Shown: positions 5,046 through 28,150 of the stretch, one piece after another
How the letters are laid out: each line of letters begins with the position of its first letter
How positions within the stretch are numbered: position 1 is the first letter of the stretch
Source of the DNA: Membranipora membranacea
Taxonomy: Eukaryota > Bryozoa > Gymnolaemata > Cheilostomatida > Membraniporidae
Direction of reading: 5' to 3'
Assembly (NCBI GenBank): GCA_914767715.1
Contig: OU612075.1
Location: 6,386,001-6,450,000 of the forward strand
DNA: 64,000 nucleotides
Notes under the pieces: generated by a model
The model's input: only the letters and a program-made list of their open reading frames with translations
What the model was told of the DNA's origin: nothing
Database searches by the model: none
Translations under genes and position numbers: made by a program

Positions 5046-5700
5046 TGGCAGATTGTTATAAATGCCAGTTTCTGACGGATAATAGAATGAAATAATAATC
5101 TTCTTATGATAACCCCTTATAGTTAAAATGACAAGAAGATCCTGCTTAACCTTTGTTCTGAATGCGCAATAGGCCCATAATTGATGTACTTGCTTGAAAT
5201 AACTCTCTATATATGTGTGTCAAAATTCTGAACATCCTGAAAATCATCATGAGCTTCGACTTCTGTGACGGCACTAAACCACTATGCCGCACACTGAGCG
5301 GTTACTAGGGCGAATTGACGAGACTTTTAATTGCACACCAGCATCTTTATTGCTCTCTCAAACAACACACACTAAACTGAGTAAAAACAATCTCTTATAT
5401 AGTATCACCAAAAGCATGTGAAAACAGGACATCGTATGATATCAATTAAACTGCAAAAACTAGGCAATAGCAAAGCGATAATTAATTGGCTCACACTCAT
5501 CAAGATGGCAAAGCGTAACACTGCACACCAGGACACAGCCCATAAGTTGGTCATTATTAATGTAATAAATGTCTATTAAAAGGTTATTATTTCTGCCACA
5601 GGAAGTTAATAAAAAATGTTTATTATTATGGCATTTCCAGTGACAGCCAGAACGGTCACTGTCATGACCTGATACATGACAGGTGATGGCTGTTACACTT
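5046..5700. other. Upstream region of NG1
   Basis: No coding sequence is recognised. The proximal part (5657-5688) contains an imperfect inverted repeat, TCACTGTCATG facing CATGACAGGTGA, immediately upstream of the NG1 TATA box; it could be a regulatory site but this is not supported further. Confidence 0.3.
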
Positions 5701-5710
5701 CATTGCAGCA

Positions 5711-5718
5711 TATAAATA
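5711..5718 (+). promoter_or_regulatory. NG1 TATA box and untranslated first exon
   Basis: TATAAATA within CAGCATATAAATA matches the same word at 16742-16749 upstream of NG2. The transcript would start about 30 bases on and the untranslated first exon ends at 5792 (CAG before GTACGT). The parallel arrangement in NG2 and NG3 supports both the promoter and the leader intron (5793-6001). Confidence 0.7.
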
Positions 5719-6018
5719 GAGTCAGAAATCAAATGAAACTCATTCGACTAAGCGGAGCCAAACATTCACTTCAGTACATAGGCTTAGGGCAGGTACGTCA
5801 GACTCTTTAAATGTCTAACATACTCTAAGATGGATTAGTGTATTCAGAAGGTTAAAGGTTAATTTCCCAAAATTGCAATTTATTTTCCCTAAATTAATTT
5901 GAGCTTTTCTCATGTTATATTTTCTCGGTTGTGAATAAAAGTTTGTAAGAAAGCTGGCAAGATTTGATGTCATTCAAAAATACTACCTGTATTTGTTGCA
6001 GAAAGGCAAACACAAGAC

Positions 6019-7670
6019 ATGGCATCCAAGTTTCTACTCGTCCTGATAGTTGTTATTGCAGTTCTTAGCGTAACTACCGCTAAGGTAAGTTGATCAAAAT
6101 GTTTCCATTTCACAAAACATTTGTGCATTGTTGAATTTTCATTACAGTGAAGCAGAAACTTGATCTTGGTATTCAACATCCATACATACATTTAAATTGG
6201 CATTATCAAACCATTTGTTATCATCGGATTGAGTTGGAGATTGAGTTAAAATTCTTTTTCCGTTGATTTTATTTTTGTTTGTTTTTTTGTTTTGCACATC
6301 AGTAAATACATCTCGCAGTGAGTGGAGGTAAAAATGTAAACACATTCTTTCAATCTGTGTGCATTGAATTCCTCTCAATCCACAGTTTATTGTTGGGAAC
6401 ATTTTTTTCGTTCAATCAACGTCCAATTTTGACATATTTTATCTTAAATTTGTTCACAGAAGAACGGTAACAACAATGGGAATTGTAAAGGTAAATGTGT
6501 GAACACAGTCACAGGGAACAACAACGGTAACAATAACAGTGGAGGCAACAATGGTATGTAATTATGGTAATATATGACATGTTAAATGAAAAAACTAGAA
6601 CTGAAATGTCAGAGACCCACCTCCAACGATGATAGCAGCGGGGATTGGAGTAGTATGGGATGTTTATAACACCAATATTCTCAGTGAAAAACTAAGACAA
6701 ATACGATGGGTAATTGTTGTAATACCTGCCTCACTCATATCATCGGTCTAGGGACCACATTTCACTCAGTTTATATTTTGTCTTTGTGTCCTTATTAACT
6801 GTGAATGCAATATCAGGGCTGATCATTGCATGTAGGAATTAGAGCCTCCCTAATGTCCAATTTGATCTAAATGATGTGATGGTTTTACAGTAAGATCATG
6901 TTACATGTTGCCCTAGAACTTCCTGATCACGCTGCCACACCGTGTTAACATAGTTGCAATGTCATGTAATATGACACCTACATAACCATCACCAACTATT
7001 GGAATAGTTTCAGATATAATATATCCTCACACTAAATTTGTCATTGCAGGGAACTCTAATGGAAACTGTGTTGGTGTATGTAAGAACACGAACGCAGGTA
7101 ACAACAATGGAAATAACAACAACTCCAACAAAAACACCGGAAATAACAACGGGAACTGCGTCGGTAAGTCACCACTACAACACTACCTAATTGTCTATGT
7201 GGGCGTACACCATTTAATGTTTGATATTTATGGTAAGTCAAGGTTACATTACTCACTTGTCTATGTAGGTGTAGACGTACACAACCTCAAGGCTACACAA
7301 AGACCAATGCATGTTATAGTCAGGTAGTTACTTATGATGGATTTCTGTAAGCTTGGCAAGGTTAAAAATATCAACGCTCTTGATGGCATGAATTATCAAT
7401 GGTGATGAGAGTGCTCACCGTAGGGGAAGGTAACTCTCATTCCCTGCAAGGCAATTGATGTCCCCTAATGCCACAATGCAAAACTGTATCAACATCGTGT
7501 TCAAGTTGCATCCTGTGTTTTAAGGTAATTGTAACGGATTCACCGGAGGCAACAACACCAACAAGAACAACCAGGGAAACTGTATCGGGAATTGTACAGG
7601 TGATAACAAAGGAGGCGTCACAGGAAAAACAGCTGGAAAAATCAGTGGCTACATCAACGGCAAAAAGTAA
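6019..7670 (+). CDS. NG1: secreted Asn/Gly-rich C-x-G-x-C repeat protein
   Basis: Coding exons are 6019-6084, 6460-6553, 7050-7163 and 7525-7670, joined by GT-AG introns; the product is 139 residues. Residues 1-22 are a signal peptide (MASKFLLVLIVVIAVLSV...). The mature part is dominated by Asn and Gly runs (NGNNNGN) and holds eight cysteines, all in four C-x-G-x-C pairs: CKGKC, CVGVC, CVGNC (formed across the last exon junction) and CIGNC. It ends with a basic conserved tail, GGVTGKTAGKISGYINGKK. The first coding intron is phase 0 and the next two are phase 1, each splitting a Gly codon. Exon 2 starts after TTGTTGCAG at 6002, and AATAAA is at 7766. The family is not recognised and no function can be assigned; secretion is predicted. 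An out-of-frame ORF covers the last exon and is not the product. Confidence 0.85.
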
Positions 7671-7765
7671 ATTGGTTTATAGCTAGCTTTCATTAGCAAG
7701 TAGTTATTGAGGTAGTTCTAAAAGTCTTCTACAATTTATAATACATCTCTTGTAAATTGAATCCG

Positions 7766-7771
7766 AATAAA
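7766..7771 (+). other. NG1 polyadenylation signal
   Basis: AATAAA lies 96 bases after the stop codon. The 3' untranslated sequence before it resembles that of NG2 (TATAGCTAG, TTGAGG, CTTCTAC, GAATAA), which supports common descent of the 3' ends. Confidence 0.7.
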
Positions 7772-7829
7772 ATGCAATGTTGCAAATGGTTGCGCCATCT
7801 TCAGTTGCCAATCCCGAAAGGAACCCTTG

Positions 7830-8635
7830 ATCAGTTTTGTTTATCACAGACAGATCACACGGACAGAACAATTCATCATTAAATTTAAAAATTGACAATA
7901 ACCAAATATTTCAAAGGCATGAAACTGAACTTCTTGACTTTAAGATATCTGACTCATTTTCATTGAATGGTCATTGTGAGGCTGTTTTGGATAAGGTGTC
8001 AAAAATACAAACTTACTTTAGCTATGCAGACCCTACTTGACCACACATTCTGCTAAACAATTTTATTCTCAATTTATTCACTGGTATCTCATTTATGGTA
8101 TCCATATATATTACAACTTATATGCATCAAATATCACAAACCCTATTTTCACTCAGCAAAAAAGAGCCTTGAGAATTGTGGCCAATGTTCAACGTATACC
8201 TTTTTATTTGTCACCTTCTAATGACCTATGTACATCACCTAAAATTTTACCCCTTCCAATACTGAGCAATTATTTTACTTGCATTACGGGATTTAAGGCT
8301 CTGAATTATTTATCACCTCCATACATCTCTGATTTTTTTGTTACCACACCAATTTCCAAGAAGAGATACACACTTACTTAAACCTCCATTAGGCAACTTA
8401 AACCACAAAATAGCAACAAACTTTAATATTTTACCCTCTTCATTGAGAAGCACTCTTACTTTGAATATGTTTAAGAAAAGGCTAATGCAACATTCTTTCA
8501 GTTTGTTGGCATAGTCTTATTTTTTTGTTGAATCTTTGTTTGTATCATTTTTTCTTTTTTGCCATTTATGTCACATCATGAAAAACATTTGAAATAATGA
8601 ATTGTTGCTGACAATAAAAGTATATATATATGCTT
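7830..8635 (+). mobile_element. LINE 3' fragment related to the 206-1970 element, decayed
   Basis: Two frames (7837-8040 and 8037-8381) give a broken RT tail: LNLKIDNN, then QFYSQFIHWYLIYGIHIYYN and QQKRALRIVANVQRIPF. The second part aligns with FYFQFIYCHLIYGIHI and LQKRALRIIANVHYIPY of the 206-1970 element. The copy is 5' truncated, frameshifted near 8037 and ends near 8635 after GACAATAAAAG. It begins about 60 bases after the NG1 poly(A) signal. Confidence 0.8.
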
Positions 8636-9270
8636 GAAACAAACAAGGGCAATTTGAAAAATTGCCGAACATCAGGACCATATGTGGTCAAAGGTGTGCT
8701 GGTCAGTTTGTTGGTAAGATAAACAAATCATTCATTCTACAAAACTGTATTTTGTGACCTTGAACTTGATCCAGCATGTGGGAGCACCATCAATAGATGC
8801 CCTTTTTATAAACCTCAGCTTGACAGCCTTGTAGCTTGACAGCCTTGCAGCTTGACAATATGACCATGCCAGCACTCATCAACTCAAACAACCCTGCATC
8901 TCAACTATCATCAGATCGGCCCAGTTATCTGTTGCTTAGTCTTTATGAAGCAGCTACCGTGTAAAGGTTAATCACTGCTAGCAAAAAAATGGCATCTGCT
9001 GGCATAAAAATGTCAATAACATCAAATAAAATGGTGATGTGAGATGCTGCTGTTGAAAATTCTAGTATGATCTTAAATCTGCCCCAGTATTTTATTTGCA
9101 AGATCTGCCTAAAATCTCTTCTAGGTATTTTGTTCCTCTCCAGAGAGTAGAGGAAAGTTATAGTACATCGACAAAAAGTTTTTAAAAATTCGATGATATT
9201 TTTTTACACAAGTTTCGGTGACTGTCCTTAATTATTTATTTAAACACACACAACGTCATACACATTGAGT
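8636..9270. other. Spacer between LINE fragment and temptin-like gene
   Basis: No gene or clear repeat was recognised, apart from short runs such as the doubled CAGCTTGACAGCCTTG near 8815-8850. Confidence 0.35.
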
Positions 9271-9271
9271 C

Positions 9272-9346
9272 TTGAAATTGGCCAATGTATTGGCTCTAAT
9301 TGGAGCCAATCAGAGCCAATCAGAGCCAACACATTGGCTACTTCCA
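9272..9346. repeat. MITE family B, internally deleted copy
   Basis: GGCCAATGTATTGGCTCT faces AGAGCCAACACATTGGCT, the same termini seen in longer elements at 23108-23291, 25848-26004 and 40744-40968. Here the ends are nearly fused, with a small duplication of CAGAGCCAAT. Confidence 0.55.
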
Positions 9347-9486
9347 AAGCTAATAAATACATTCTAAGGTGAACTCCTTTAACATATAGACTGCATCAAA
9401 AAAATGTTATTTCATTTTCAGTTCTCACATGGATATTTTACTACAATTTAATTCTGTATCAAGTTTTAGCGTTATACATGATCCAG

Positions 9487-11790
9487 TTAGATTAGTGGAA
9501 TTGGGCATGCAGCAGCGCAGATAGGTATCCGGCGATTCCTGATCATACATTCAACATGGCATACAGGCTCGCATATAGCTGGGTGACTTATAGCCATGTT
9601 GATTTGAGGATCACCTGCAAAAAAGATATTATTGTGCAATGTATGATGTTATCGCAAAAAACAACAAATATACAAAATAATATATAATTGATGCTTTATA
9701 TTTTGCCTGCTGCCATGATTATTGATTAAAGGTAAATTTAGATGTTAGTGAAGTGATACATCAGATGAGTAAATATAAGCTAGGACTACAGTTTAGTTGA
9801 GCTGGTCTGATCTGTACCGGTCCGGCCCGATCCGGTCCGGTTCGGTCTGGTCTGGTCTGACCTTGCTAGCTAGGCCCAACTGATGGTAGCTAAGGTCGAA
9901 GTTCATATAACATGGTGAGGTTGAGCAAATGTGAACTAGCCATTACATTTCAGGAAAGTGTGAAAAGGCAAATCATGTATCCTGCTAATCTGTTTATCTA
10001 CTAGGGAAATGAATTCTCTCCTAAGTGTGGCAGGGAACGCAAAGCCAAGGCAGAAAGGTCAACATGATAGTTGGAGCAGTGGTCAAAATTATCGAATTTT
10101 TTTTTTATATTCTCATGGCCAATTAAAACACAGCTCTTGCTTTTGTGTTAGCAAGGGAAATTACTATGATCATTTAAAAAATATTTATTGATGGAGGTTG
10201 AGCCCTATTCTTTGCTATGGTGGGTAGGAATGTTTTGCACAAATCAAGATTCCATTTCAAAAGAATGATGCTATAACTAGCGATCCTGGCACAGTTTGAG
10301 GGTTTAAATGACTTTATCAGCAAATGAATTTGATATTATTACTGTTATTATTAAACTAGCTCAATTATCAAATAGCAATTTCACTCCATGAATCACAACA
10401 AAGGCAAAGTTCTCACCTTCCTTCCAGATGCATTGTGGGTCCCCGAGTTCTTCACCATTTGTTAAACCATCACCGTCAGAATCCTTCGTACATATTTGTT
10501 CATTCCACACCTAAAATTTAAAAACAAAATTCTGCATAACTTTCAAAACTTGTTAGAATTAAAGCAACAAGTATGCAAACGAAAATTAGTAGAAAAAAAT
10601 ATTCTGATTTGAGCAATTTGCGTTAATTAAGGAAAGCGTTTCACATGGTTGTCAGAGATTACTCAAAACATGCTATTGAAGTTTATCTAGATTAGAAATA
10701 TGAGTAGTATGATTTTCTTTGCTTCTCATCCATGATCATGTTCAAACAGAACTAGAACTAATGATTTTAAGCTCTGTTCATGTGTTATTACCAATTATTA
10801 TTAGTTATTATTGTTATTATTACTAGTAATGTGCATATTGAAATTTGTGGTAAACTGATGATGATGTTTATTACAAGACTATCTGACAACACAAAGATTA
10901 ATCTAAAAGTAGTAGATCAGCTCCCAGCATTTTACTTGAAGTACATACTCTTGAGAAGAGAAGTATTTGCTCAGGCTTGTGTTAGCAAATCTTGATAGTT
11001 AGCTAACATTTACACAACCTATCTACTACATAACATGTCCTATCTTACTATCTTACTATCTTCTTCTTATTAAATTCATATATATATAGATTTTAATATC
11101 AATGTGTATATACATATCTATGATCCCAGCTATCAAACCGATGCTATGACAATAAGCCATGGAACCCAAAACTAGCAAAGCTGAACAAAAGCAAATAAAA
11201 TCCTCTAGGGTACCAATCTCCTATTTTTCAAACCTTACCAGGCCTGCCTCCTTGAAGTCTTTGCCGAACGCATTTCTTTCTCCTCCGCCGCTTGAACTTA
11301 GATGTCCGACACCTTGCCATATGGCGGTGAAGTCTCCGACACATGGGTTGGGAACAGCATCACCATTAGGTACCTTCATCTGGAAGATTCTATGCGCCAA
11401 ACTAGTCACAGCAATCATCGCGAGCAACACAGCTACTCTACAAGACAGAAAAACATAGTAAACTTAGTTGTCACAAAATTCATGCGCAACATTCCTCGAT
11501 TATACACGTGCTGTTTAGAAAGTTGACATTAGTTGTTGCGGTTCCATAAGAACTTTAAAGAATTCTTACCTTATAACTTTTACAGGATATAATGTATTTG
11601 TCAAACCATATTTCAACAATGATTTTAGCCTCAATTTTTTGCATGGCACAAAACACTTCTAGGTGTACTGTTTATTAGGCTTTATATATATATATCATTA
11701 TTATGACAAAAAAAAAAGATTATATCAATGTAATGAAAATTAATGAAATAAACATAAAATAATATGTTACCTGCTAGTCAAAAATGACAT
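9487..11790 (-). CDS. Temptin-like secreted protein
   Basis: Four minus-strand exons, 11771-11790, 11239-11437, 10417-10510 and 9487-9614, join in frame with GT-AG introns of phases 2, 0 and 1 to give 146 residues. The start MSFLTSR is followed by a hydrophobic signal sequence (VAVLLAMIAVTSLA). The mature part shows the temptin signature: VPNGDAVPNPC, then IWQGVGH, SGGGERNAFGKDF, then C-T-K-DSDGDGLTNGEELGDPQC and finally SHPAICEP. DSDGDGLTNGEELGDP also resembles a calcium-binding loop. Temptin in Aplysia is a secreted pheromone complex protein; homologues occur in many marine invertebrates where roles are mostly unknown. The tail after SHPAICEP carries four further cysteines, more than I expect for the family. 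The gene lies on the opposite strand between NG1 and NG2. The fragment starting with GTG at 11430 is only one exon of it. Confidence 0.9.
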
Positions 11791-11898
11791 TCTGAATTTG
11801 GTGGTGACTCTTGCTGAATACTTCAAAGAAATTGTGAGTAGAATTTACTCTCTTTCACAGGATGAATGGTTCTGTTATATGAGCTATCCAGTGCCTGT

Positions 11899-11906
11899 TT
11901 ATATAT
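11899..11906 (-). promoter_or_regulatory. Possible TATA box of the temptin-like gene
   Basis: On the minus strand the sequence reads ATATATAAACAGG about 110 bases upstream of the ATG at 11790. Position is plausible for a TATA promoter with a short leader, but nothing else supports it. Confidence 0.4.
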
Positions 11907-11909
11907 TTC

Positions 11910-13050
11910 TTAAAATTGGGTCAAAACTGATCTCACCACTCGCTGGCTGCAGACAACAAGTGCAAAACTTTGAACCCCCATCATACTGGTAAAACCATCC
12001 AAAATTAGTAAAAGATGTCTGGACAGCAACCATAGATTATGTCGACCAAATATCATTACATGAATGTCTCAAAGGCCGTTTGGAGAAGTTTTAGCGGTGC
12101 CCACATGGTCCGTCAACCATTATTATAAGATAGTATTCCAAGAAACAAGCGAGATATCAATCAGTGATTTATCAAGATGGCAATCTGGTAGTGTCATAAC
12201 CAAGAGTCCAAGGTTTACACCAAATATTTAATACTGCTGAATTAAAGATAATAAATGCTAAAAATAACTCGCCTATAACTTTGAATCTTTGTTGATGGTA
12301 AACTCATTGCATCTCACTCCACAAACTGTAAGACTTTAAAAAATATATCCTCTACATATAAACTGTGGATTCAACAAAATCTCTGGTTGAATGTCAGGAA
12401 GGTGGCAAAGATTTGCTAAAGTCTGATTCCCAATTGCTGAACAGAAGTCTGACAATTCTTGCAAGAGTTCCCTACACATAGAGAAAAAAAATTTTTTATG
12501 CGTACACAAAACAATGGATTCTATGCTACATGCATCAGAGCATACTCAATATTAAGATTAATAATTGGGCCTGAACAGACAGACAGACAACCAATACCAA
12601 AGAACTGCAGTCAATACACCATTTTATATGGCAGCTATATTATTATATTATTCCAGTGCATCTCTAGCCTTGTCACACAGCCTCAAAGTTGCCATGTGAA
12701 AAGACTAAGGTTTCACCATTGTCATTGTGGTTAAAACCTATATCATAAAGCTTCCATTGATTTCGGAACCCATTCAAATAGTAAAGCTTGTTATGTGTGG
12801 ATAGTAAATTTGGTCATAGTAATTCTTGTATTTTGCATAACCCTGGATCGACTTTTCCCAGGCAGCGAGATTGACCATATGGTACCAAGGAGTAACAGCT
12901 TCCAACAATTTAACGATATCCCTTATCGCACAATCATAGTCTACAAGTGGTGAGATTTGCAGTTGATTTCATCATCCTCTCTTCAAACCATCTAGCTATC
13001 TGTGGTAGGATCGTGGATTGGGCCATGAAGTCCCATCTATATTACATGGA
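11910..13050. other. Spacer, no gene recognised
   Basis: Only short frames without motifs or splice support are present. This would hold the distal promoter of the temptin-like gene. Confidence 0.35.
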
Positions 13051-13054
13051 TTAA

Positions 13055-13260
13055 TGTATTTGTGTGGGACACCCCTTGGTCTCTGTGGCGTTCTACTCTT
13101 ACACCAGCTCTTTCTCAATGCCTTTGAGGGCCAATAGCTTCCTCAATATATGGATTCTAATAAGAAAACTTACCAACATCATAGATAGAAGGATAACATG
13201 AGGAAATATTAAATTTAGATTTATCAAATAGATTTAGGTCAACATACATAACATAGACAA
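13055..13260. repeat. Dispersed repeat copy 2 (partner at 1985-2215)
   Basis: Direct-orientation diverged copy of 1985-2215 sharing CCTTGGTCTC/CCTTGGTCCTC, ACCAGCT, ATAGCTTCCTCA, GGATTCTAAT, GATAACATGA and TTTATCAA in order. Confidence 0.6.
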
Positions 13261-14017
13261 TTGACTTTATATTGGTTATGTGAAAAAAGCGATCAATTGC
13301 CTTGTCCTTGTAAACCTTTGGAACCTGGCGGGACTGAAATCAAAGATATTGGAAAACGATACCTAGCATTAACTACAAAATCTAGATGTCTTTTAGTTGA
13401 GCAAGCATGCTTACATGAAGACATAATGATTGACATATGCTGCCCAATGATAGCCATATTATAGTTAGCATTAACTACAGGCTATATGTATCAGCTTTAA
13501 CAAGAGAGGTAGTACGACATGGATCTTCAATATTGTATGGCACTTGAGTGACCGGGAGGAAAAAGGGGCACTGAGCTTTGGATGATTACCCTAAGATGGG
13601 CAATCTGGGACTTCTTGAAACAGATTTGAAATTTGGATGAAGGATGTAACTAGAAGCCTCCATTAAAGAAAAATCCTGCACACTTTGTTATGACAGACCT
13701 GTTGTAGGGCTTCATATTATGATCCTATGATTACTTTACTCCTTCATGGTGTTTGTGGTGCAATCCAATAGTCACACTTTAGCTTCCCCCTCCCCTCCCT
13801 TACTTTTCTTGTCTCAATGTTTAGACTGAAGGATTATTGTTTTATTGGGTCATTATGGTCCATTGAGTTGTTTGCGGATATGCTAATATCTAATAACAAG
13901 CTAATAACTGTCTTCACATGTCACTTCCACCTTCAACAAAAATGCCTCTACAGATCCTGTCAATGATAGATTTGAATTTAATTTGTTTCCCATTTTATGA
14001 ATCATATGCTATGATGG
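13261..14017. other. Spacer, nothing recognised
   Basis: Open frames at 13261-13464 and 13918-14127 have no motif or splice context that supports a gene. Confidence 0.35.
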
Positions 14018-16470: not shown

Positions 16471-16741
16471 GGGTGGTAACTAGGCAACTTGTCATTTGTT
16501 CATAAATGACAGCCTCTGACAATCGAAGGAACTAATCTTTGAATGACACCAATGACATTCTATACCGCCTTTGTTTTGTTTGAATTATTAATACATCAAT
16601 ATGACTTATCAATAATTATCAACCTACATAAGGTTTAAATATGCGTCAATCTCTTTAATCTTCAATCCGTCACATCCTCTTTTGGAAGGGGGCTGGCTAA
16701 AGTAAACCAATACAGTCACGAGTTTCCACTTCACCACAGCA
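16471..16741. other. Upstream region of NG2
   Basis: Non-coding; holds the NG2 proximal promoter. A CCAAT word occurs in AAACCAATACAG near 16706, about 35 bases before the TATA box. Confidence 0.35.
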
Positions 16742-16749
16742 TATAAATA
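16742..16749 (+). promoter_or_regulatory. NG2 TATA box and untranslated first exon
   Basis: TATAAATA inside CAGCATATAAATAAAG, matching NG1. The untranslated first exon ends at 16820 (ACACAG before GTATGG) and the leader intron runs to 17415. Confidence 0.7.
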
Positions 16750-16934
16750 AAGTTAGAGAGAAAATCTCATACTTGACAACGCAAAGTCAACAATCACCTC
16801 AGTAAATAGGAATAACACAGGTATGGATTTTAAATATTTAACAAACTTGATTATTGTGTTCATTTGTGTTAATAAGTTTGAGGAAAGGTGTGGCTTTCAT
16901 TGGTTGTAATTAGTTCTTGAAGCACCTTAATCTT

Positions 16935-17110
16935 GCTTTTCACAGAAAGAAAAACAGGCCTAATTCTGTCTCAAAAAAATTGAAATTTCCTAAAATAATT
17001 GGGTGCTTGTCAAGGCCTACTGTTATTGTTGGTTCATGTTCTATTTCTATAAAATCATTAGGTATATTAATGTTGATGTCTGTCACTTCTGACATTGACT
17101 GCACCAAAGT
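16935..17110 (-). mobile_element. Remnant of a LINE endonuclease inside NG2 leader intron
   Basis: The minus strand reads an AP-endonuclease-like stretch: ININIPNDFIEIE and then PIILGNFNFFE. It resembles the region around the catalytic GDFN motif, with Asp changed to Asn. Both sides are out of frame. The plus-strand frame at 16917-17144 is the shadow of this. Confidence 0.4.
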
Positions 17111-17239
17111 GTGTGTTAGAAAGAGGTTGTGTAGTGACGGCTAATTTCCAAAGGCATTTGTGCCACTTTTCAACCACTGACAGCTTTAACCTCGCATGAA
17201 GCATAGTGCTACAACATCAAGATATCAAAATTAACTTAT

Positions 17240-17325
17240 CTTTATTCTCAATCTTTCTATTTTTTTCGGCACCATTCCGAAAACATTTCACTATTAAAAA
17301 TGAAATAGACAGCCAATAAAAGTGT
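17240..17325 (+). mobile_element. LINE 3' tail fragment
   Basis: CGGCACCATTCCGAAAACAT, then TAGACAGCCAATAAAAGTGTT, recurs at 29140-29205 and resembles the 3' end at about 1945-1965. It is a 5'-truncated retroposed tail in the NG2 leader intron. Confidence 0.5.
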
Positions 17326-17432
17326 TACAAAAAATGATCTTGTCTTTATTCGAAATATTGTTAGAAAGTTGCCGAAATGTCACAGTATTAAATAGTACTT
17401 ATGTTTTTGCTGCAGGAAATCCAAGACAAGAC

Positions 17433-19172
17433 ATGGCATCTAGTTTCTTTTCTCTACTCACCCTGTTGGTTCTTATCGCAGTTTTAAGTGTATCTACTGC
17501 TCAGGTAAGTTGATTAGATCATCATTCAATCTACGATGTTTTTCAACCAAACATTTGCATTTGTGGCAGCATGGGATAGTTCCACTTCCATGAAGTAATT
17601 TGTTAGGAAATGCGACTACAAGTGATGACATGAAACAAACATCCGAGTTCCACAGGTCATCAGGTCATGGAACATAGTGCCGAATCCATAAACAATATCA
17701 GTTATCTACAACTCAGCACTCTGCGCCTGAATTTATCCATCTAGACTGAGTAGCTAAAATGGGAAAACAATGGAAACCCATCACTTGGAAATATTTTGAC
17801 ACCAATGGAACAATGGTTACAGTATCTGATAACCTAGAATTCTGGGAGCTGTCTGTCTCGATGGCAGGCAGCGCCAACATTGCTATGCTGCAGAGATAGA
17901 CTACGTCACAAGGCAATCCTGCAGGAATAATGAAAACTCAAGCTAGCTGCTTTATTGAAGTTTCACAATTTGTCAGTTAAAGTATTCCTGAAATTTTGGA
18001 CAAATCAAAAAGAAGAAATGATTCTTATAAACATACACAAATTGCCTTGTGCTTGTAGAGAGTCAGTTATATTTCTCTGATCCATGAATTCATATCAGTG
18101 GATGCGTGTATTTCTCTTAATTTGTCTCCTTTGTCTCAATTTTGTATTTCTCTTATTTGTCATGTTACATTGGTCGGAGATTATATTAAAGTGTAAATTA
18201 ACAAAATATCCACAGTCAATTCCATCAATATTCAGTTTAGCTAATTCTTATTTCATTTTATTATCAGAAAAATGGAAACAATAATGGAAATTGTAAAGGT
18301 AAATGCGTGAACACAATCAGAGGGAACAACAACGGTAACAATAACAGTGGAGGAAACAATGGTATGTAATTATTATAATATAATATGTGATTATTTATAA
18401 TAAAACATTATTTTATTGTATTTAATTATTTTTTATATACATATTATATTATATTATAAAATATGGAGATCAACGAAGTTTGAAAAACATCTCCAACTTA
18501 TTGAATATTTGATATTTGTCTCGTCACACTAGTCTTGTTTCTGCAGGGAACTCCAATGGAAACTGTGTTGGTGTGTGTAAGAACGTGAAATCAGGTAACA
18601 ACAATGGTAATAACAATGATACTGATAAGGACACAGGAAATAACAATGGGAACTGCGTCGGTAAGCTCATGTTACATAACTTCGGAATTGTCTGCCCCTT
18701 TATAATAGAATGGTCAGTGTGTGAGTGTGTGAGTGTGTGAGTGTGTGAGTGTGTGAGTGTGTGAGTGTGTGAGTGTGAGTCTATGGTGTGAGTATACAAC
18801 TTTATCTTTGCGCCGTTTGAGTAAAAACTGTTGATCACAAATTGAAAGAGAACTTTCTTTCATATGCTGCTTTGTTCCAATGGGATTGTATTCCCATTAT
18901 CCCACAATTCAAACATGGTGCCATATGGAGCCTTTCTCCTACATCCTACACATGTTGGTGTCAATGCTGATGCTGTTGTTGTGGTTATTGTTATTGTTGC
19001 TGTTGATGTTGCATTATGTTTTTAAGGTAATTGTGTCAATTACTCCGGTGGCAACAACACCAACAAGAACAACCAGGGAAACTGTATTGGTAATTGCGGA
19101 GGGAAATACATGGGAGGTGTCACAGGAAAAACAGCTGGAAAAATCTCAAGCTATATCAACGGCAAAAAATAA
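17433..19172 (+). CDS. NG2: secreted Asn/Gly-rich C-x-G-x-C repeat protein
   Basis: Coding exons 17433-17504, 18268-18361, 18547-18660 and 19027-19172 join to 141 residues. Intron phases (0, 1, 1) and the lengths of the last three exons (94, 114, 146 bases) are identical to NG1. Residues 1-24 are the signal peptide (MASSFFSLLTLLVLIAVLSV...). The mature part again has eight cysteines in four pairs, CKGKC, CVGVC, CVGNC and CIGNC, separated by NNNGNNN linkers; the middle linker is more acidic than in NG1 (NDTDKDTG). The C-terminal tail ends GKTAGKISSYINGKK. Exon 2 is preceded by TTTTTGCTGCAG. A poly(A) signal lies at 19251-19256. The lack of stops or frameshifts in a repeat-rich gene argues that it is functional. 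Function unknown. The frame at 18880-19188 that overlaps the last exon is out of frame. Confidence 0.85.
18380..18470. repeat. AT-rich stretch in NG2 intron
   Basis: Almost pure A/T sequence with repeated TATAATAT and TATTATAT words, between the second and third coding exons of NG2. Confidence 0.6.
18716..18779. repeat. Octamer tandem repeat (GTGTGTGA)n
   Basis: About seven perfect copies of an 8-base unit in the last NG2 intron, starting 55 bases after the third exon. The minus-strand frame rich in His-Ser-Thr is only a translation of it. Confidence 0.9.
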
Positions 19173-19256: not shown

Positions 19257-19257
19257 A

Positions 19258-19709
19258 TTTAGTTTTGATACTAAACTTCTGACATCATTTCATTTGTTGA
19301 GTTGCAATAGAATGGAATATAGAACCTACCATTCAAGGGATTCGTATAGATATATAAGAATATTATCATGTTACGATAATCTTGATAATTCAGCCAATTC
19401 AGCAATGGTCATAATTCTGCAATTCTGGTAGTCTGTTGTATTGATTTGCTGATAAATCTGCAATTCACACTTCTTGTGTGAGGTGATTATAAAGCCATCA
19501 TTGTTTTCTCATTGAAACATCACTGAATACTGACACCATAAATCAGCATAAAAGCCAGCAAACATTACAAAAGTTAAGACTAAAATATATTGAATATATT
19601 ATCAATCGAATAACACCCTACCATTATTCATTCCTGGAGTTATTTCCCCTCTCAAAAAGGTTGCGATAACCTCTATCCAGGAAGTTTGTGAATGATTCCT
19701 AGTAAGTAT
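19258..19709. other. Spacer downstream of NG2
   Basis: No gene or repeat recognised. Confidence 0.35.
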
Positions 19710-19731
19710 CTTGGCCATCAGATTATGTCCT

Positions 19732-20133
19732 GTGTACTTGTCTACTGACTAACTCATGGAAAGACATGTGACAGCATGGAAAGACATGCTGACAAGCTGG
19801 AAAGACAGCTAAACCTACTACAAGGGGTCCCAGCAATGGGCCATGTAAGGCCAATAACCCTAACACGTACGCTGTGTTTCATAGGGTGGCAATGGTGGAA
19901 TGGAATGTGCTGTGGGATGAGAGAACACAACTCCGAGTAGTGAATAGCGGGCTATCTAATTAGCGCCATCGACCCATTCTTTTTTGGGGATGGTGAGATG
20001 GCGCAATCGGTTAGCGCGCTTGCTATTCACTGCCAGGCGATTAGTGCCGCAGGAGTTGTGGGTTCGAGCCCCACTGGGGGAGCTTTCATTGTTGATTGTT
20101 CCAGCCCCCAGCACCCTCGGGTGTATACCTCTC
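19732..20133 (+). mobile_element. tRNA-related SINE with perfect 22-bp target duplication
   Basis: The insert is flanked by identical 22-base direct repeats at 19710-19731 and 20134-20155. Inside, a tRNA-like Pol III promoter is visible: an A box (TGGCGCAATCGGTTAGC) near 19998 and a B box (GGTTCGAGCC) near 20061. The element ends CACCCTCGGGTGTATACCTCT. About 260 bases precede the tRNA-like part, which is unusual because tRNA-derived SINEs normally start with it. Related copies on the minus strand are at 33832-33958, 44876-45230 and 62666-62937. The open frame at 19998-20210 is not a gene. Confidence 0.85.
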
Positions 20134-21420
20134 CTTGGCCATCAGATTATGTCCTAGTGATCTTGTATTATGAATACAAGGTATTCAGTTTTCAATTTGC
20201 ACTTCAATAAGGTAATATCTTATCTTCTGCTGAGCACATTTGATAAATGATCTGTGAATGATAAGATATATCATGTGGAAAAATGTGTCATATAGAAAAA
20301 AGTATGCAGAGCAAACAAGTCAAAACTTAGCTACCTAAAATAAATGTAAATGAGGAACTAGTCATTGACGTTTCCCCTAGCCTGAGCAGTCTGTCTGGGG
20401 TTCGGTGGGTGTCCCCCACGCCCCCACCTACCCTATACAGCCTGCCCAGGCTAGCTCTCCTCAGTATTTAATCTATGACTTGACATGTCTGAAGGTCGTC
20501 GAGATATTTCATATCCCACAATTGTGTAGGCCTACAGTAGAATCTGGTCCAATAAAATCCTCTGAATGAGGAGCTCTGCCTGACCAGAAAAGAGTTTCAA
20601 ACCTGCACTCTTAAATCCTGTCCTAGAGTGTTAGGGTTAGTTTATCTGGTATAATCCCGTTTTAATTCATTTCCAGAAGGCATCCGTTTATGTCAAATTG
20701 ACCTATTTTGGGAACAAAGATGAGTATAACATGAGATTGAAATATGTTAAGCTTTCCTCAATTAGCAGCTGCTGCTGTCTGTCATGGGATAGCCCACTGA
20801 ATTAAATTCTTCCCACGAAACAGAAATATTATAATGATGTATTTTATGCTCATATTTATCTCATCTATGCACCCTATATAGGTTCATTTGTCATAAATGA
20901 TGCCATTTGTAATGCATTAAAAAAGTATTATTCAAGATTTAAGCCAGGGTTTAAGTGTGCCGGTTTCTGGTGAGGCAAAACAGTTCTTTCAGGGGGATGG
21001 GCCCCCCATTCTATCATAATTATCAGTGGGAAATGAAATGCCTTGACAAACTCTAGACATGCCAAGTCATATATTGAAATCAGAGGAGAGCTAGCCTGGG
21101 CAGGCTGTTAAGGGTAGGAGGGGGCGTGGGGGACACCCACCCAACCCCAGACAGACTGCACAGGCTAAGGGAGAGGTCAATAACTAGCTCCTAATTTACA
21201 TATTATGAGAAAGCTTAATTTTATAATATTGGCCTCGCACACATTTTCTATTTGATTAATGCATCCATATGATATATCTTGTCATTTACACATCATTTCC
21301 TGAAGTGCTCAGTGGAAGATGAGCTACTACCTTATGGAAGAGCCTACTGGAATCTGAATACCTTGTTTTCATGATGCAAGATCACTAGGACTATAACAGC
21401 CCAGATCAAAGACTGTCTGG
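20134..21420. mobile_element. Large inverted-repeat (foldback) element
   Basis: The left arm, about 20145-20520, matches the reverse complement of 21030-21412 along nearly its whole length. Matching landmarks are GTCCTAGTGATCTTG, ACAAGGTATTCAG, CTGAGCAC, AAGATATATCAT, GTCTGTCTGGGGTT, GTGGGTGTCCCCCACGCCCC and CAGGCTAGCTCTCCTC. The central 500 bases are unique. No transposase is encoded, so this is a non-autonomous foldback or MITE-like DNA element. The SINE at 19732 sits just outside its left end. Confidence 0.8.
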
Positions 21421-21727
21421 TTTAAAAGTTATCTCTACATTTAAGGAGATGAGATGAATCAGGAAATAAATCATGGTAACCTGAAATTTTATCAATTGTA
21501 TCTATACTAGTTTGAACCTATGTAATGTCTACTGGCATCAATGGTGATACATGGTCAAACAATTTATCTCTATCCAATGATTTATGTATAATAAGCCAAG
21601 GAGTAACAGGGTTACACCTTGGATAAAGCACTGATGACTTCACAATGACCTCATATAAGCTGTGTGAATTGATGTTGGTTCTGCAAAGTCATCAAGTTAA
21701 TGCTCTGATATATATAAATATATCCAA
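21421..21727. other. Spacer
   Basis: Nothing recognised. Confidence 0.3.
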
Positions 21728-21860
21728 ATTCTAGTTCACTTTCATGTTGTGCTTACATACAATGGGGGGAAAATAACTGCTATGTCATCTCTTATTGGCC
21801 GTAAACAAGTTCAATGCCTAAAGGGATTTAAAGATATTCGAGGCTCATAAAAAATTAAGA
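21728..21860 (+). pseudogene. Copy of the NG3 3' region, probable relic of a lost NG gene
   Basis: This stretch matches 27440-27595 just after the NG3 stop codon: TTCATGTTGTGCTTACATACAATGG against TTTATGTTGTGCTTGCATACAATGG, then TCATCTCTTATT, CAATGCCTAAA and GGCTCATAA. No NG coding sequence was found next to it. It could be the remnant of a fourth gene, a duplication end point, or an independent repeat. Confidence 0.5.
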
Positions 21861-22679
21861 AGTACTAAAATTTCTACGCTATTTTGGTGCAAAAAGACAT
21901 GTTCCGGACATGTTTTCAGTGGTTTGAGTGTTTGCAATTTGCATCCTTGGGTCATTTTAGGCATTGAAATCATTTATCAATCAATCAGCTTATCTTGGAT
22001 TTCCATTTGCTAATTATGCTTTAAATTGGTTGGTAAGGGCTTTCAGCGACCCTCCTAGGGATGCTTCGGACTCGCCTCGTACTTTTGCCTGCCCTACCGT
22101 CTTTTTTTAAACTACAGCCCTGTGTATGTGAGCCAGCCCTGGCTTTGAGCCTCTGATGACTTGTCAGGTTTCCATTGATACATGCCAGAAAAATAATGAA
22201 TCATAATCCGTTCTTAGAATGACGGTGAGCCATATTTTTTCCATTGTCGTTTAAAATACGGACGTAAGGCCAAGGGCAATTCGAGAGCTGTGCACAAGCC
22301 GCTTAAAGGATTTACTCTGGCATGTGCCAAACTAAGAAGGCAGGCCAGTAGTTCTAGATGAGGCAGGGGCGCTCTACCTCCCCTAGAATGCTCAATAGAA
22401 CGGCTTAAAATGCCTCAGCTCATTTGACAATTATATTTTCTATTGATATCATTGAAACGCTTTGGAGGCCGGGGACTCGGGAAGATCATACAATACCCAA
22501 CCTTGTGTTACTTCATACCCGCAAGGACTTTTGCCTCCTCTACCATTTTACCCAAACTATGACCCTGGAAGGTATGTCATTTTGAGTGGCTGTCTGTACC
22601 AGCTGAGAACAATTCACCACCTGGAACTACAGCTAGGCAAAATAATCCCTTTTGCAACTTCCTAAACAACATAGCAGCT
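21861..22679. other. Upstream region of NG3
   Basis: No gene recognised; the frame at 22462-22665 has no motif. Confidence 0.3.
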
Positions 22680-22687
22680 CATAAAAA
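22680..22687 (+). promoter_or_regulatory. Probable NG3 TATA-like box and untranslated first exon
   Basis: CATAAAAA in CAGCTCATAAAAACAAG occupies the place of CAGCATATAAATAAAG in NG2. The sequence after it parallels the NG2 leader and ends CCCAG before GTATGT at 22754. The TATA word is weaker than in the other copies. Confidence 0.5.
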
Positions 22688-23107
22688 CAAGTTGAACATG
22701 CAAATTACTTCAGTTGACAACAGGACAGGACACCCATCAACATTCCATCCCAGGTATGTTATTATAATAATTTGACACAAATACTAGGGCCTTGTAAGTA
22801 ATCTGAGACTATACCCATCATGGATTTGGGTATAGTTAATACTGTGCACACTGTTTGTAGCCATTAAAAAATTACGTAACTTTCTAATATCAAATCATGT
22901 GTGATTTAGTATTTGATAGTTATTTTGGAGCTGTAGTCCCTTCACATTTGGAGACAATAATAATATTATACCAAAAATTAAACCACTAGTTAAACTGTGT
23001 ATAATTTCATAATGAGAGAGTTGATTTACACTTTTTTGTATTCACTCCTATCAAACTTTATTTGTGCAAAAGTACTGCCAAATTTCTTTTCCACGTTTAG
23101 TTTAAGT

Positions 23108-23291
23108 TTAATACACCTGGAAGTGGAAGAGAGTTAAAGCGAGGTCACTGAGAGCACCTATTGAGATATAATGAAAGTGAAACTGAATTATTTTCAAACT
23201 TTCTATAATATCAATACGTACCATTTGGTCTGGTATTGGCTCTCTCCCTCCCACCTGCCAATCAGAGCCAAAACATTGGCTAACCTGTGAG
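23108..23291. repeat. MITE family B copy
   Basis: Contains GTCACTGAGAGCACC, TATTGAGATATA, TGAAAGTGAAACT, TACCATTTGGTCTGG and the terminus AGCCAAAACATTGGCTAAC. The same order of words is found at 25848-26004 and, reversed, at 40744-40968. It lies in the NG3 leader intron. Confidence 0.7.
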
Positions 23292-23449
23292 ATGTTTTGA
23301 TTCTTAAATTGCTCTCCTTCTTCGTCTTTTTGATAACGCAACAGGAAACCTACTTTCAATAAATGACCCTCTGTCATCCAGTTTATTGAGGGAATATATT
23401 CAGATATTCAGAGTCATTGTTATTTCCTTTGCAGAAAAAGTAAAGAGAC

Positions 23450-26400
23450 ATGGCATCTTGCTCCTGTTCACTAGTGGCTCTGGTCATTGTTATGGCAGTA
23501 CTCAGCACATCTTCTGCTCAGGTAAGATTTGGCGTCATCTCTTTGATAAAATCATGAAATGTCATCAAATCAATTGTTTAGCTTTTAGCCTTTGTTATCT
23601 TGGAAGCTTTCCAACTGTGTACAGGAAGCCAACATTTTCTACCCACCCACGTGTCTCTACCACAAGTTCATGCGAATGTTCAACGAGGTCAAGTTCAAAT
23701 TTCAATAACTAAAATTCTGGTAGTCCAAGAGGGTCAGTCTGTGCTTGCCAACGAAGTTCTAATTGATGTCATTTTAATGCCCTCATGTCATGTTTTGTGT
23801 TCATATTTCTTGACCTCTTGGTACAAGGAATGTTACAATGGTGGGATCTCGATAAACTTGGGAGATACAATTAATCAAGAAATACTTCCCAAATGGTACT
23901 TGCACATATGGTACCAGTCGCTTGGTACTAATAATTCCAACGTTTAACCATCTTCGATTATTGGAACATTTCAAGTGCAATAATGAAGAAGCCCTTAAAG
24001 AAATAAACATCTTAGATATTGATTAATTTAATACAGATTGTGCTCGAAAAAAGCGGCAGAAAATCATAATTATTTCCTAAAAGGTTTTCATTGATGAAGA
24101 ATGGGTGTTGGCTGTTAGCAATTATACTCAGTACTAAAATTAAATTAAATTAAATGTTGCTAATTTACTGTTCTCAATTGATGGTGTAAATTTTATTTCA
24201 ATTGATGACATATTTGATCAATGTTCATTGTTTTTATTTTACAGAACAACGGAAATAACAATGGGAATTGCTACGGTAAGAGACAAGACAAATCTTTGTT
24301 AAACCTATAGTAGCGCCTCCCGATATTTGATATCATATTGAAGGTCTCGGTCTAGTTAAGAGCACCATGGCAATTTCTTACATAGCCTATGGACACAGTA
24401 GAAATCATTCGCTTTACTAAAATGACAATTCTTCTCAACTTTTCTGAACCACCGCTTCACAACATCCAAATATGTATAACATGCTCAAATTTCAGATCAC
24501 GGTGCCCTTAAGTTTGGGGAAATCTTTAAAAAATATGATATTTGGCATGTGATTCGACATATTTGTTTACCCAAGCAAATATCATAATCCAAAAGTTTGC
24601 TACTAAAGCTTTAAAGTCAAAGTTTGTATATCGATATTCGCTAGCCGACCGATAATAGTGACAATATCATCTGGCTGAAGGAATGAATAGACATTTTTTG
24701 CTGGGCACAAACTCCCTTATTTGCAATATATTGTTATTTGATCGAGAAATTCATATCGTTGTGAAATGCATTGTTTTTGGCATCCCGCACCAGCTTCCCA
24801 CATAATAGTCTAACCACAATTCAAAAGATGCATAAAATGTTCTTACTGGTATTTGATTGTTATCATGCATTATATGGTGTATTCATATCATATCATATCA
24901 TATCATATCATATCATATCATATCATATCATATCATATCATATCATATCATATCATATCATATCATATCATATCATATCATATCATATCATATCATATCA
25001 TATCATATCATATCATATCATATCATATCATATCGTATTGTTATATCATAATTCATTGATTGACATGTTGGATTGTATGTTACGTTATTGTACCGCATCA
25101 TAGACTTGTGATTGGTTGCAGGTGGCTATTGTAGAGGAGGGGCTCGAGGAAATTTCAATGGCAACAGCAACTCTGGAACAAGTGTGAACAATGGTAACAA
25201 CAACGGGAACTGTAGAGGTAAATGTGTGAACACAATCACAGGGAACAACAACGGTAACGAGAATACGGCAGGAAGTAATGGTATGTACAAATTGAACACA
25301 ATATCTGGAACGTCATAATTAGCTTTCTTTTGACAAACAAAGAGCGTTCAAAAATAGCCAGTCCCTAGTAGCATCCCAGGAATGCCCACAATATTGTTCT
25401 GTAGCACTGAGGTATATATAAATGGAGCGGGGCCACTCGCTGAGCAGATGGCCATTCATTTTTATTCATATCAATGTTCTGGAGGCATTTTACCCCTGTT
25501 TGAAATTTTGTAATCAACACTTTATCCCAGGCTATATTATTCATGCTAGTATAGGTACAGCCACATCAATGTCAGATCAGTCCCTGTGTTGTGTGTTCTA
25601 ACTGTATAAGGTTATGCTTACACTTACGTTCCATAAAAATAATATAATTCAGTGTATGTAGATAATACACATAAGAAATTGAGACATACTTTTGCACAGT
25701 AATTTCAAATAAAGTGATTTTAGAGTGAGTTCTAAGAGTATATGAGACCTGGTTAACTAACAGATGCTTAAGATCAGCTGTCCCGTTTGCCAGAGGACTT
25801 TGTCATCAGTTTTTGCACTAAGGTTGTCACAAAAAGCAGGATATACATGGCCAATGCGTTGGCTTTGATCTTATTGAGAGCACACGCCAAGTCACTAAAA
25901 CTACCTATTGAGATATAGTGAAAGTAAAACTGAATTACTTCCACAATAATTATATACCGATGGGTACTATCAGGAAAGTACCATTTGACCTGGCATTGGC
26001 TCTCTACACCAGATACACACATCTACATCCAGCGTTGATAATTTATCAATAAATACTTATTAGTCATTGATATGAATTAATGGAATTGTGGTAAATTAAC
26101 AACCTACAAAACTCATGCAAGCTGCCTGACAAAAGTTGTAAGTGGTCATCCCTAAACTTGTTGACCAATAAAAGATGAGAAATACGTTCCAGCAACTGTT
26201 CCAGCAACACATAACTAGCCATATGCTTGATCAGGATTCACATTGGTTTAAGTGGACTTCTTTCTCTGGGTACTCTAATCCCTGGGTTGAAAATCGTTTT
26301 GAGAATTTTCTGCAATTTTTTTTATGCAAAAATATGGATCTGTAATAGTATGATTGATATCTGGTCAAAAGAGACAACTTGACACTGTTTTGAACAGAAT

Positions 26401-27398
26401 CCAGTGGGAACTGTCTTCTAAAGGTTCCCCCTCTATGTTTTTGCGGGAACTCAGTTCCCACCAGTTCCACTCACTCAGAACACTGAGGGTGCGACATGCC
26501 CCCTAGTCCATTTAATATATATCAGTTTTGTTGCTCTGCAGGAAACTCTAATGGAAACTGTATAGGTGTATGTAAGGACACAAACGCAGGTAACAACAAC
26601 GGTAACAACAATGATTCCGATAAGGACACAGGAAATAACAATGGGAATTGTGTGGGTAAGTCATGCCTCCAGTTCTTAATTGTCTATGTAAGCGTACACA
26701 CACCCCTCCCTCTCCCCATACACCTCTTAAGATAAGATCTTATTGGTTGCCTTCATCAAAGATTGATCAAAATTAAGTGATTTGTGGTGGCTTATTTAAA
26801 AATCGAAAACATGTTGTTAAAAAACTATCATATTATCTAGTCGTTCTAGTTTTGGCACCGATAAAAGATCAATAATGTTTGTCGATTAAGGTAAGTCTAA
26901 TTTAAGAGTGATATTACATGTGTATAGGAGCTGTTCCATTTCGACAGACGGTCAGCAATGAATTTGAGATGGAAATTATTTATTAGCCTGAGCAATGCTT
27001 GGCATTTGTTGAAATAAATTTTGATCAAACTTGCCTGCATTTGCTGAGTTGCTCCCCTTCATACTGCCGGCTTACCGGTGGAATTAGCCTGTCTTTACAT
27101 GCTTTGTTGGTGGTGGGGGACCAATCTTCTCAACAGTTCGACTCAAGGGATGACAGGCTTTGTTCCCCTCATCATCAAAGACTGACCCCCCCCCCCCCCA
27201 CAAACTCAAAAGATGACATCATTGATATGACAAGATATGATTCTTGTTTTAGGTAATTGTGTAGGATACACTGGTGGTAACGATACCAACAAGAACGGCC
27301 AGGGAAACTGTATCGGTAACTGTGGAGGTAAATATATGGGCGGTGTTACGGGAAAAGTGGCTGGAAAAATCAGTGGCTACATCAACGGCAAAAAATAA
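23450..27398 (+). CDS. NG3: longer secreted Asn/Gly-rich C-x-G-x-C repeat protein
   Basis: Coding exons 23450-23521, 24245-24275, 25122-25280, 26542-26655 and 27253-27398 give 173 residues, one exon more than NG1 and NG2. Residues 1-24 are the signal peptide. The second exon is only 31 bases (NNGNNNGNCY), and the third is a 159-base module with GYCRGGARGNFNGN, a Ser/Asn linker and the CRGKC block that matches exon 3 of NG1. The last two exons equal those of NG1/NG2 in length (114, 146). Ten mature cysteines are present; the first pair is C-x4-C (CYGGYC), the others CRGKC, CIGVC, CVGNC and CIGNC. All internal introns after the first are phase 1 and split a Gly codon, so the exons are symmetrical and can be gained or lost without frame change. 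An AATAAA occurs near 27541. Function unknown. Confidence 0.82.
24884..25034. repeat. Pentanucleotide microsatellite (ATATC)n
   Basis: About thirty nearly perfect 5-base units in the second coding intron of NG3. Because the unit is 5 bases, all three plus frames stay open and read Ile-Ser-Tyr-His repeats; these frames are not genes. Confidence 0.97.
25848..26004. repeat. MITE family B copy
   Basis: Same family and orientation as 23108-23291: CCAATGCGTTGGCT, AAGTCACTAAAACTACCTATT, GAGATATAGTGAAAGTAAAACT, AAAGTACCATTTGACCTGGC. Lies in an NG3 intron. Confidence 0.7.
27010..27062. repeat. Repeat with TTTGATCAAACTTGCCTGCATTTGC core
   Basis: The core recurs as GCAGGCAAACAGGATCAAA near 32758, at 40612-40688 and at 41225-41275. 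It looks like the end of a short foldback family (family C). Confidence 0.45.
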
Positions 27399-28150
27399 TA
27401 AGTCGATTTGGAGATACAATTAACTCTATTGAAAGTGACCGTTCGCTTTTATGTTGTGCTTGCATACAATGGTGGTAGTAGAATAATTGTTGTATCATCT
27501 CTTATTCATTGGGAGTAAATGTAGTAAAAGTAAGTTAAGAAATAAAAGTCCAATGCCTAAATTGACTTAAGAATATTGTAGGCTCATAATATGCAGTTTT
27601 TATCACACATAATATATATTCAAGAAACTATTAGTTTTTAAGTCTTACTGGAATGTTGTTTTGAATCAATGAAATTGTTTGGTCCCAAAACAGACGCTCA
27701 CAAAACTCTCAAATCTTACCGGAATGTTATTTTGAACCGTTGCAACAACAGGACCAAAAGCATAGTTGCCTTATCACATACGTTTGAAGGTTTTAAATAA
27801 ATTTCAGAGATTTTTCTGTCAGTACAGTCATTATTTATTAATCCAATTTTTTTCACCCACATGCCTGTCACACAAAAAATGCCTTTAGTTTGATTCCTGA
27901 ATAAACAGAATTTACTTGTCAATATGTAATATTTCATTTCAATGGTTTGATGTCGAACTCTGGATCCTATTCTTGACTGAAAATAGTCTAGACATAGCTT
28001 CACATATGAGACAGATAGAACGCTGAAGCTCTGTTCATTGTCCAATTTCGATCTTATTTTAACGGAAACCCTTTTGCATAGGTCTGGGCATTCAGCATTT
28101 GTGTCAAGTTATCTCCATTTTTTCATGTTATTCAGAGTGAATTCCTACAA
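27399..28150. other. NG3 3' region and spacer
   Basis: Holds the NG3 3' untranslated region. No further gene is recognised; the minus-strand frame at 27716-28045 has no motif. Confidence 0.4.

Follow-up and report, generated by a model that had tools for sequence, protein, structure and literature searches.

What kind of proteins do three adjacent genes rich in asparagine and glycine encode, and do they belong to any described family? The question is raised by NG1, NG2 and NG3, which lie in a 64,000-nucleotide (nt) window of the bryozoan Membranipora membranacea (C11:6386001-6450000; the assembly comprises 339,339,785 bases in 18 contigs, to which all C-numbers refer). As judged from sequence, NG1-3 almost certainly belong to a real multigene animal family of small, predicted secreted proteins, dispersed through the genome.

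Structure and conservation of NG1, NG2 and NG3

In regard to gene structure, models rebuilt by script bear out the original prediction of three homologous Asn/Gly-rich genes on the plus strand, with products of 139, 141 and 173 amino acids (aa). All three genes are spliced, all their coding introns are GT-AG, and the reading frames are free of stops. The coding exons measure 66/94/114/146 nt in NG1, 72/94/114/146 nt in NG2 and 72/31/159/114/146 nt in NG3 (Table 1), with start phases of 0, 0, 1, 1 in NG1 and NG2 and 0, 0, 1, 1, 1 in NG3. The exon lengths of 94/114/146 nt that had been expected in all three genes are found in NG1 and NG2, while NG3 has no 94-nt exon. NG3 carries one additional module, which starts in the 31-nt exon; its remainder opens the 159-nt exon, where it is fused to the module that forms exon 2 of NG1 and NG2. 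An exon-chaining script, which scores NG composition together with splice consensus and was supplied with exon 1, recovered the downstream exons of NG1-3 exactly; as its coding score was taken from the NG genes, this represents a consistency check on the splicing and no independent proof.

Further upstream, the promoter word thought to be common to the three genes is an exact CAGCATATAAATA in NG1 and NG2, but has diverged in NG3, where its counterpart reads CAGCTCATAAAA. The promoter/leader regions of NG1 (5693-5824) and NG2 (16724-16847) show 70% alignment identity, and the predicted intron in the leader was seen by inspection in each gene.

Table 1. Positions of the NG genes and of the temptin-like gene in the window (UTR, untranslated region)
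Feature	Position	Strand	Basis
NG1 TATA-type promoter word CAGCATATAAATA	5706..5718	+	exact match
NG1 leader (5′UTR) intron, GT...AG	5793..6001	+	inspection
NG1 exon 1, predicted signal peptide, ends in phase 0	6019..6084	+	inspection for signal
NG1 exon 2 (94 nt), first NG module	6460..6553	+	splicing and chaining scripts
NG1 exon 3 (114 nt, phase 1-1), second NG module	7050..7163	+	splicing and chaining scripts
NG1 exon 4 (146 nt with stop), final CxGxC pairs, basic tail	7525..7670	+	splicing and chaining scripts
NG1 candidate poly(A) signal AATAAA	7766..7771	+	
NG2 promoter word CAGCATATAAATA	16737..16749	+	exact match
NG2 leader intron	16821..17415	+	inspection
NG2 exon 1, predicted signal peptide	17433..17504	+	inspection for signal
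NG2 exon 2 (94 nt)	18268..18361	+	splicing and chaining scripts
NG2 exon 3 (114 nt)	18547..18660	+	splicing and chaining scripts
NG2 exon 4 (146 nt with stop)	19027..19172	+	splicing and chaining scripts
NG2 candidate poly(A) signal AATAAA	19251..19256	+	
NG3 diverged promoter word CAGCTCATAAAAA	22675..22687	+	alignment
NG3 leader intron	22754..23434	+	inspection
NG3 exon 1, predicted signal peptide	23450..23521	+	inspection for signal
NG3 exon 2 (31 nt), start of extra module	24245..24275	+	splicing and chaining scripts
NG3 exon 3 (159 nt)	25122..25280	+	splicing and chaining scripts
NG3 exon 4 (114 nt)	26542..26655	+	splicing and chaining scripts
NG3 exon 5 (146 nt with stop)	27253..27398	+	splicing and chaining scripts
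NG3 candidate poly(A) signal AATAAA	27541..27546	+	
Temptin-like gene, exons ~11790-11771, 11437-11239, 10510-10417, 9614-9487	9487-11790	-	

The building block of the proteins, GNxNGNC-x-G-x-C-x5-GNxNGNxN, measures about 30 residues and is present in three copies in NG1 and NG2 and in four in NG3, the final copy being incomplete. The module lies mostly on phase-1/phase-1 exons, after the signal-peptide exon and before the last exon, which holds two further pairs of Cys as well as a tail that is usually basic; in NG1-3 the C-terminus reads GGNxTNKNxQGNCIGNC, followed by a 24-residue tail with five lysines. Both the signal peptide and the CxGxC pairs anticipated earlier are present in NG1-3, the former recognised by inspection (a hydrophobic core, then T/S-x-A ahead of K/Q) and pointing to secretion. 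Mature NG1-3 contain 29-36% Asn and 22-25% Gly. In NG1, NG2 and NG3, respectively, they have 8, 8 and 10 Cys, 2, 3 and 6 aromatic-or-His residues, 1, 3 and 6 acidic residues (D+E), and isoelectric points (pI) of 9.59, 9.43 and 8.85. All Cys are found in CxGxC pairs, except for one CxGGxC-like pair in NG3, and there are 8-12 Asn-Gly steps per protein.

All three are old copies whose protein sequence has been preserved by purifying selection. For NG1-NG2, NG1-NG3 and NG2-NG3, synonymous divergence (dS) amounts to 0.52, 0.78 and 0.72 and non-synonymous divergence (dN) to 0.12, 0.14 and 0.14, with the extra module of NG3, which has no partner, left out. Their ratio (omega) is 0.23, 0.19 and 0.19 over all aligned codons and 0.19, 0.14 and 0.14 in the mature part; purifying selection is weakest in the signal peptide, with omega of 0.48-0.58. 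Synonymous differences exceed non-synonymous ones in each pair (Fisher p 5e-8, 1e-11 and 1e-11 in the same order, the pairs sharing sequences), and the three coding introns common to NG1-3 show only 42-56% alignment identity. The earlier argument for selection is upheld by dN/dS, the Fisher tests and the diverged introns, while the surrounding repeats, on which it also drew, add little. A dispersed repeat with at least 37 further genome matches occupies positions 6160-6338 in the first coding intron of NG1, and a long TATCA-type microsatellite lies in an NG3 intron (about 24883-25050).

Copies in the genome and in public collections

A protein search of the genome with NG3 gave 42 exon matches at an expect value (E) <= 0.01, 10 of them in NG1-3. 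A family of three, as originally proposed, is an undercount: 16 loci were counted genome-wide, namely NG1-3 and 13 further ones on five contigs (C10a and C10b; C10c1, C10c2 and C10d; C7a and C7b; C6a and C6b; C8a and C8b; C1 and a second C1 place about 5 kb from it). Beyond these, two divergent loci, on C3 and at 15.275 Mb on C10, carry about one module per exon in the form DNGNxNGNCxGNC...GNxNGNxN. No further NG copy turned up in the 60 kb flanking the window on each side. When 1,201 bases of DNA around exons 1-2 of NG1 were searched against the whole genome, at least 41 matches were obtained, made up of the query itself, three NG2/NG3 exons and 37 matches to the dispersed repeat of the NG1 intron; as 40 of 97 candidates were scored, these counts are lower bounds.

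Exon 3, as set by script, measures 114 nt in NG1-3, C6b and C10c1, 117 nt in C10b and C1, 111 nt in C6a and C8a, and 125 or 119 nt in C10c2, C7a and C7b, where the donors are unclear; for C10a, C10d and C8b the script gave no usable exon chain. At the script-chained loci, where phases were checked, the arrangement that defines the family, GNxNGNCxGxC...GNxNGN, lies on a phase 1-1 exon, and invariant G, N and C columns run through an alignment of 22 exon copies, of which 15 belong to this genome and 7 to public sequences. A phase-0 signal exon is present at nine of the 16 loci (NG1-3, C10a, C10b, C6a, C8a, C1 and C10d, the last being the weakest), and the last exon at 11. The C1 loci read mainly as exon-3-like copies. 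Translated stretches starting at C1:17818838-17818993 and 17824183-17824335 represent such copies about 155 bases apart, with truncated starts, and are probably the result of tandem exon duplication inside an NG locus.

The low-complexity composition could suggest that chance or decaying repeats were mistaken for genes, but dN/dS, intron divergence, splice phases and the dispersed paralogues reduce this explanation to a negligible one.

In a collection of 5.8 billion proteins, at least 16 open reading frames (ORFs) carry the module, the longest contig per ORF ranging from 512 to 31,483 bases; four were found in a first search among 1,219 candidates, and those four with 12 others in a second among 7,982 scored candidates. 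Fourteen hold the exon-3 module, whole or in part, and P0015 and P0016 the preceding module. In 11 of the exon-3 ORFs (P0001-P0009, P0011 and P0012) the module opens on Gly, and the residue after the module is K, E or R, a pattern that would fit an AG acceptor and a phase-1 GTAAG, GTGAG or GTAGG donor. P0010 stops at the module end, P0013 continues with M, which fits GTATG, and P0014 with G, a poorer fit. P0010 is identical to C7a across 43 aligned residues and P0016 agrees with C1 at 54 of 55 residues, intron read-through included, and therefore both are probably from this species. The other 14 show 37-80% identity to the fetched genome regions across aligned stretches, and could originate from other species or from paralogues outside those regions. 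A fused exon like exon 3 of NG3 is found in C10b and P0015. In a FastTree tree of the 22 exon copies (40 columns; P0002, P0007-P0010, P0013-P0016 and the second C1 place were left out), P0006 groups with C10c1 (support 0.71), P0005 with C10c2/C10d (0.76), and P0001 adjoins C10a. With modest support, this would fit duplications predating the species sampled.

The prediction that the exons are invisible to ORF calling is accurate for whole genes, which are missed, while single exons are seen, so that single-frame gene callers report the family only in pieces. A search for homologues of the last exon gave one candidate and none scored; since TAA stands directly before this exon in NG1 and NG2, ORF callers would rarely report it. 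Scanning viral contigs with the exon-3 alignment gave 32 pattern matches, none confirmed by tblastn. Being recognisable by its sequence, phases and invariant residues, the exon module could serve as a query against the genomes and transcriptomes of other animals.

Known families and possible function

No Pfam family exceeded its gathering cut-off for NG1-3, C10a, C10b or C6a. The best scores below it were FeoB_associated (16.8 bits, cut-off 27) and zf-Tim10_DDP (15.9, cut-off 22.3) for NG1-3 and only SMN_Tudor (10.8, cut-off 22.7) for C6a, with no family at all for C10a and C10b. Among PDB sequences there was nothing below E 0.1 for NG2, the sole NG query, and no paper naming the module came up in the literature searches made, among which one with the motif letters returned unrelated titles and abstracts. 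These results agree with the earlier statement that the layout matches no known family, and with respect to Pfam, PDB sequences and the literature the family is provisionally regarded as undescribed. Modular extracellular proteins with symmetrical class 1-1 exons represent a general principle; as in them, the NG repeat unit coincides with a 1-1 exon, but unlike their domains it has no Pfam match above cut-off. Apart from Asn and Gly, nothing in the proteins is as regular as the CxGxC pairs, which could act as metal ligands or form redox pairs along a flexible backbone. However, the absence of a Pfam family above cut-off and the very long Asn/Gly linkers speak against this, and we consider it improbable.

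Closest in plan are pearlin/N14/N16, low-molecular-weight nacre proteins of pearl oysters (PMC7677314). Common to both are a signal peptide, a length of about 140 aa and an Asn-Gly repeat domain, as well as about ten Cys thought to form disulphides in the nacre proteins, and Asn and Gly among the main residues (PMC7677314). Pearlin has one NG domain, four acidic regions, 13% Tyr and a mature pI of 4.69, the pI being that of P. mazatlanica pearlin (PMC7677314). In contrast, NG proteins carry Asn and Gly along their whole length, are basic, have few aromatics and hold CxGxC modules on repeated exons. NG1-3 thus have the signal peptide, by inspection, and the NG repeat domain, but neither the four acidic regions with an acidic pI nor, when compared by listed positions without an alignment (PMC7677314), ten Cys at the pearlin positions. 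As these two defining features are absent, NG1-3 were not filed under pearlin/N14; they might work like pearlin nevertheless. A pearlin/N14-like mineral matrix, in which the NG domain would meet growing crystals, is suggested by the resemblance in size, signal peptide, Cys number and NG domain (PMC7677314), but few acidic and aromatic residues and a pI of 8.9-9.6 against 4.69 make it quite unlikely, if slightly less so than the metal or redox role.

Other shell proteins are more distant. Nacrein consists of a carbonic anhydrase into which a repeat is inserted (PMC4066178), and nacrein-like proteins have secretion (predicted for NG) and Gly-X-Asn repeats in common with NG proteins (PMC4066178), but no Pfam match to their alpha-carbonic anhydrase domain was found in NG1-3, C10a, C10b or C6a. 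GAAP, a Gly/Ala/Asn-rich abalone shell protein (PMC6003135), is, judged by its name, Asn/Gly-rich like NG and disordered, as NG is predicted to be, and is set apart by its description as Ala-rich.

We propose, tentatively and at somewhat less than an even chance, that NG proteins may form an extracellular gel, mucus or matrix layer. Directed outside the cell by the signal exon, the mature protein would be intrinsically disordered and strongly hydrating. Its paired Cys, whose even counts in regular pairs fit extracellular disulphides, would be oxidised there, locking loops or linking chains, while the basic tail would bind acidic glycans, nucleic acid or mineral. Hydrated chains, disulphides and tail would together build the layer. 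A tail that is mostly basic but rarely amphipathic, the disulphide-compatible Cys and the composition favour a gel or matrix over the alternatives, which are ranked behind it in the order of defence, mineral matrix, metal or redox function and a cue acting with temptin. Taken whole, the explanation by a family together with a gel or matrix appears evenly balanced between true and false.

The tail also bears on host defence, in which secreted Gly/Asn-rich proteins with a microbe-binding basic tail would form a birth-and-death family. Ten of the 11 last exons could be tested, because the end of C10c1 is not resolved. The basic tail described originally as conserved carries a positive net charge in nine of them, and a charge of 0 in C8a. 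This, together with the signal exon, small NG clusters on several contigs and tails that, by eye, are less alike from locus to locus than the core is, would agree with a defence family. However, tail amphipathicity is not beyond shuffles in eight of ten, and mature NG1-3 are under purifying and not diversifying selection; host defence is therefore regarded as unlikely, although it leads the alternatives. An amphipathic antimicrobial tail helix as a common theme was rejected on the same eight tails, while C10c2 (0.028) and C10d (0.05) were borderline.

Several points weigh against the gel or matrix reading and the family model underlying it. A signal exon was not accepted at seven of the 16 loci in the neighbouring DNA examined; outside the window, signal exons were chosen by hand among script candidates, several at some loci, and the filter applied to C1 and C10d admitted certain second residues, so that the "MA" is partly built in. 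The last exon was not found for C7a, C7b, C8b and C1, the second C1 place showed no more than a weak match to it (E 0.009), and some loci lacking a signal or last exon may be pseudogenes. Structure prediction, proposed earlier as a check, gave no confident AlphaFold fold for isolated exon 3 (15 sequences, mean predicted local distance difference test score 44.7) or the last exon (3 sequences, 38.3), which is uninformative; disorder is deduced from composition, AlphaFold having been run only on single exons. To these are added the tail of C8a, with its net charge of 0, and the eight tails with a helical moment not above shuffles. Finally, no feature of the sequence distinguishes a gel from defence or from a mineral matrix.

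If true, the gel or matrix reading would extend the few protein chemistries that animals use for structure by one based on asparagine. It is also conceivable, albeit doubtful, that a new Asn/Gly/CxGxC exon module of about 30 residues was multiplied by one lineage into a large family of asparagine-based gel or matrix proteins, which would then form a structural class distinct from both Gly/Ala silks and the acidic proteins of shells. Asn-Gly deamidates fastest of all dipeptides, and a basic gel could therefore slowly become acidic and isoaspartate-bearing, thus serving as an ageing clock in the material. Against this idea, Asn-Gly is not enriched beyond composition (nine seen in NG1, about 10 expected).

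Temptin-like gene and other features of the window

The product of the temptin-like gene, obtained from four exons joined by hand, matches Pfam Temptin_C (E 1.4e-35, 122 bits, cut-off 27). A relic temptin-like exon with stop codons, 62.5% identical, lies on the minus strand about 0.8 kb before the window (C11:6385137-6385277). In Aplysia, temptin is a water-borne pheromone component. Placed between NG1 and NG2 on the opposite strand, with the relic just before the window, the gene could suggest that NG proteins are a water-borne cue or carrier acting with the temptin-like protein. However, the argument is one of adjacency, and tblastn with the temptin-like protein found nothing but the relic in 120 kb of flanking DNA, making this very unlikely, more so than a metal or redox function.

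Other parts of the window hold repeats and gene fragments. A repeat family with copies about 75-89% alike is found at 19762-20130, 33826-33946, 44875-45231 and 62658-62935; at 19998-20075, one of the copies scores 30.1 bits against the Rfam model for tRNA (cut-off 29), and the family is thus probably a tRNA-derived short interspersed nuclear element. ARAGORN reported no tRNA. Positions 20147-21396 form a long imperfect palindrome, with a 69% match to its own reverse complement, which is perhaps a foldback or inverted-repeat element. On the plus strand, a reverse transcriptase ORF (194-1840; RVT_1, E 6.9e-36) probably represents a non-LTR (long terminal repeat) retrotransposon, and an ORF at 2839-3594 has a zf-RVT match just below cut-off. 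Pieces at 46041-56500, also on the plus strand, presumably resemble RBMX2; Pfam gave only a weak RRM_7 match, at 46041-46349. NIPSNAP-family-like pieces lie on the minus strand at 42030-42977, with a Pfam match at 42702-42977 (23.3 bits, cut-off 22.3).

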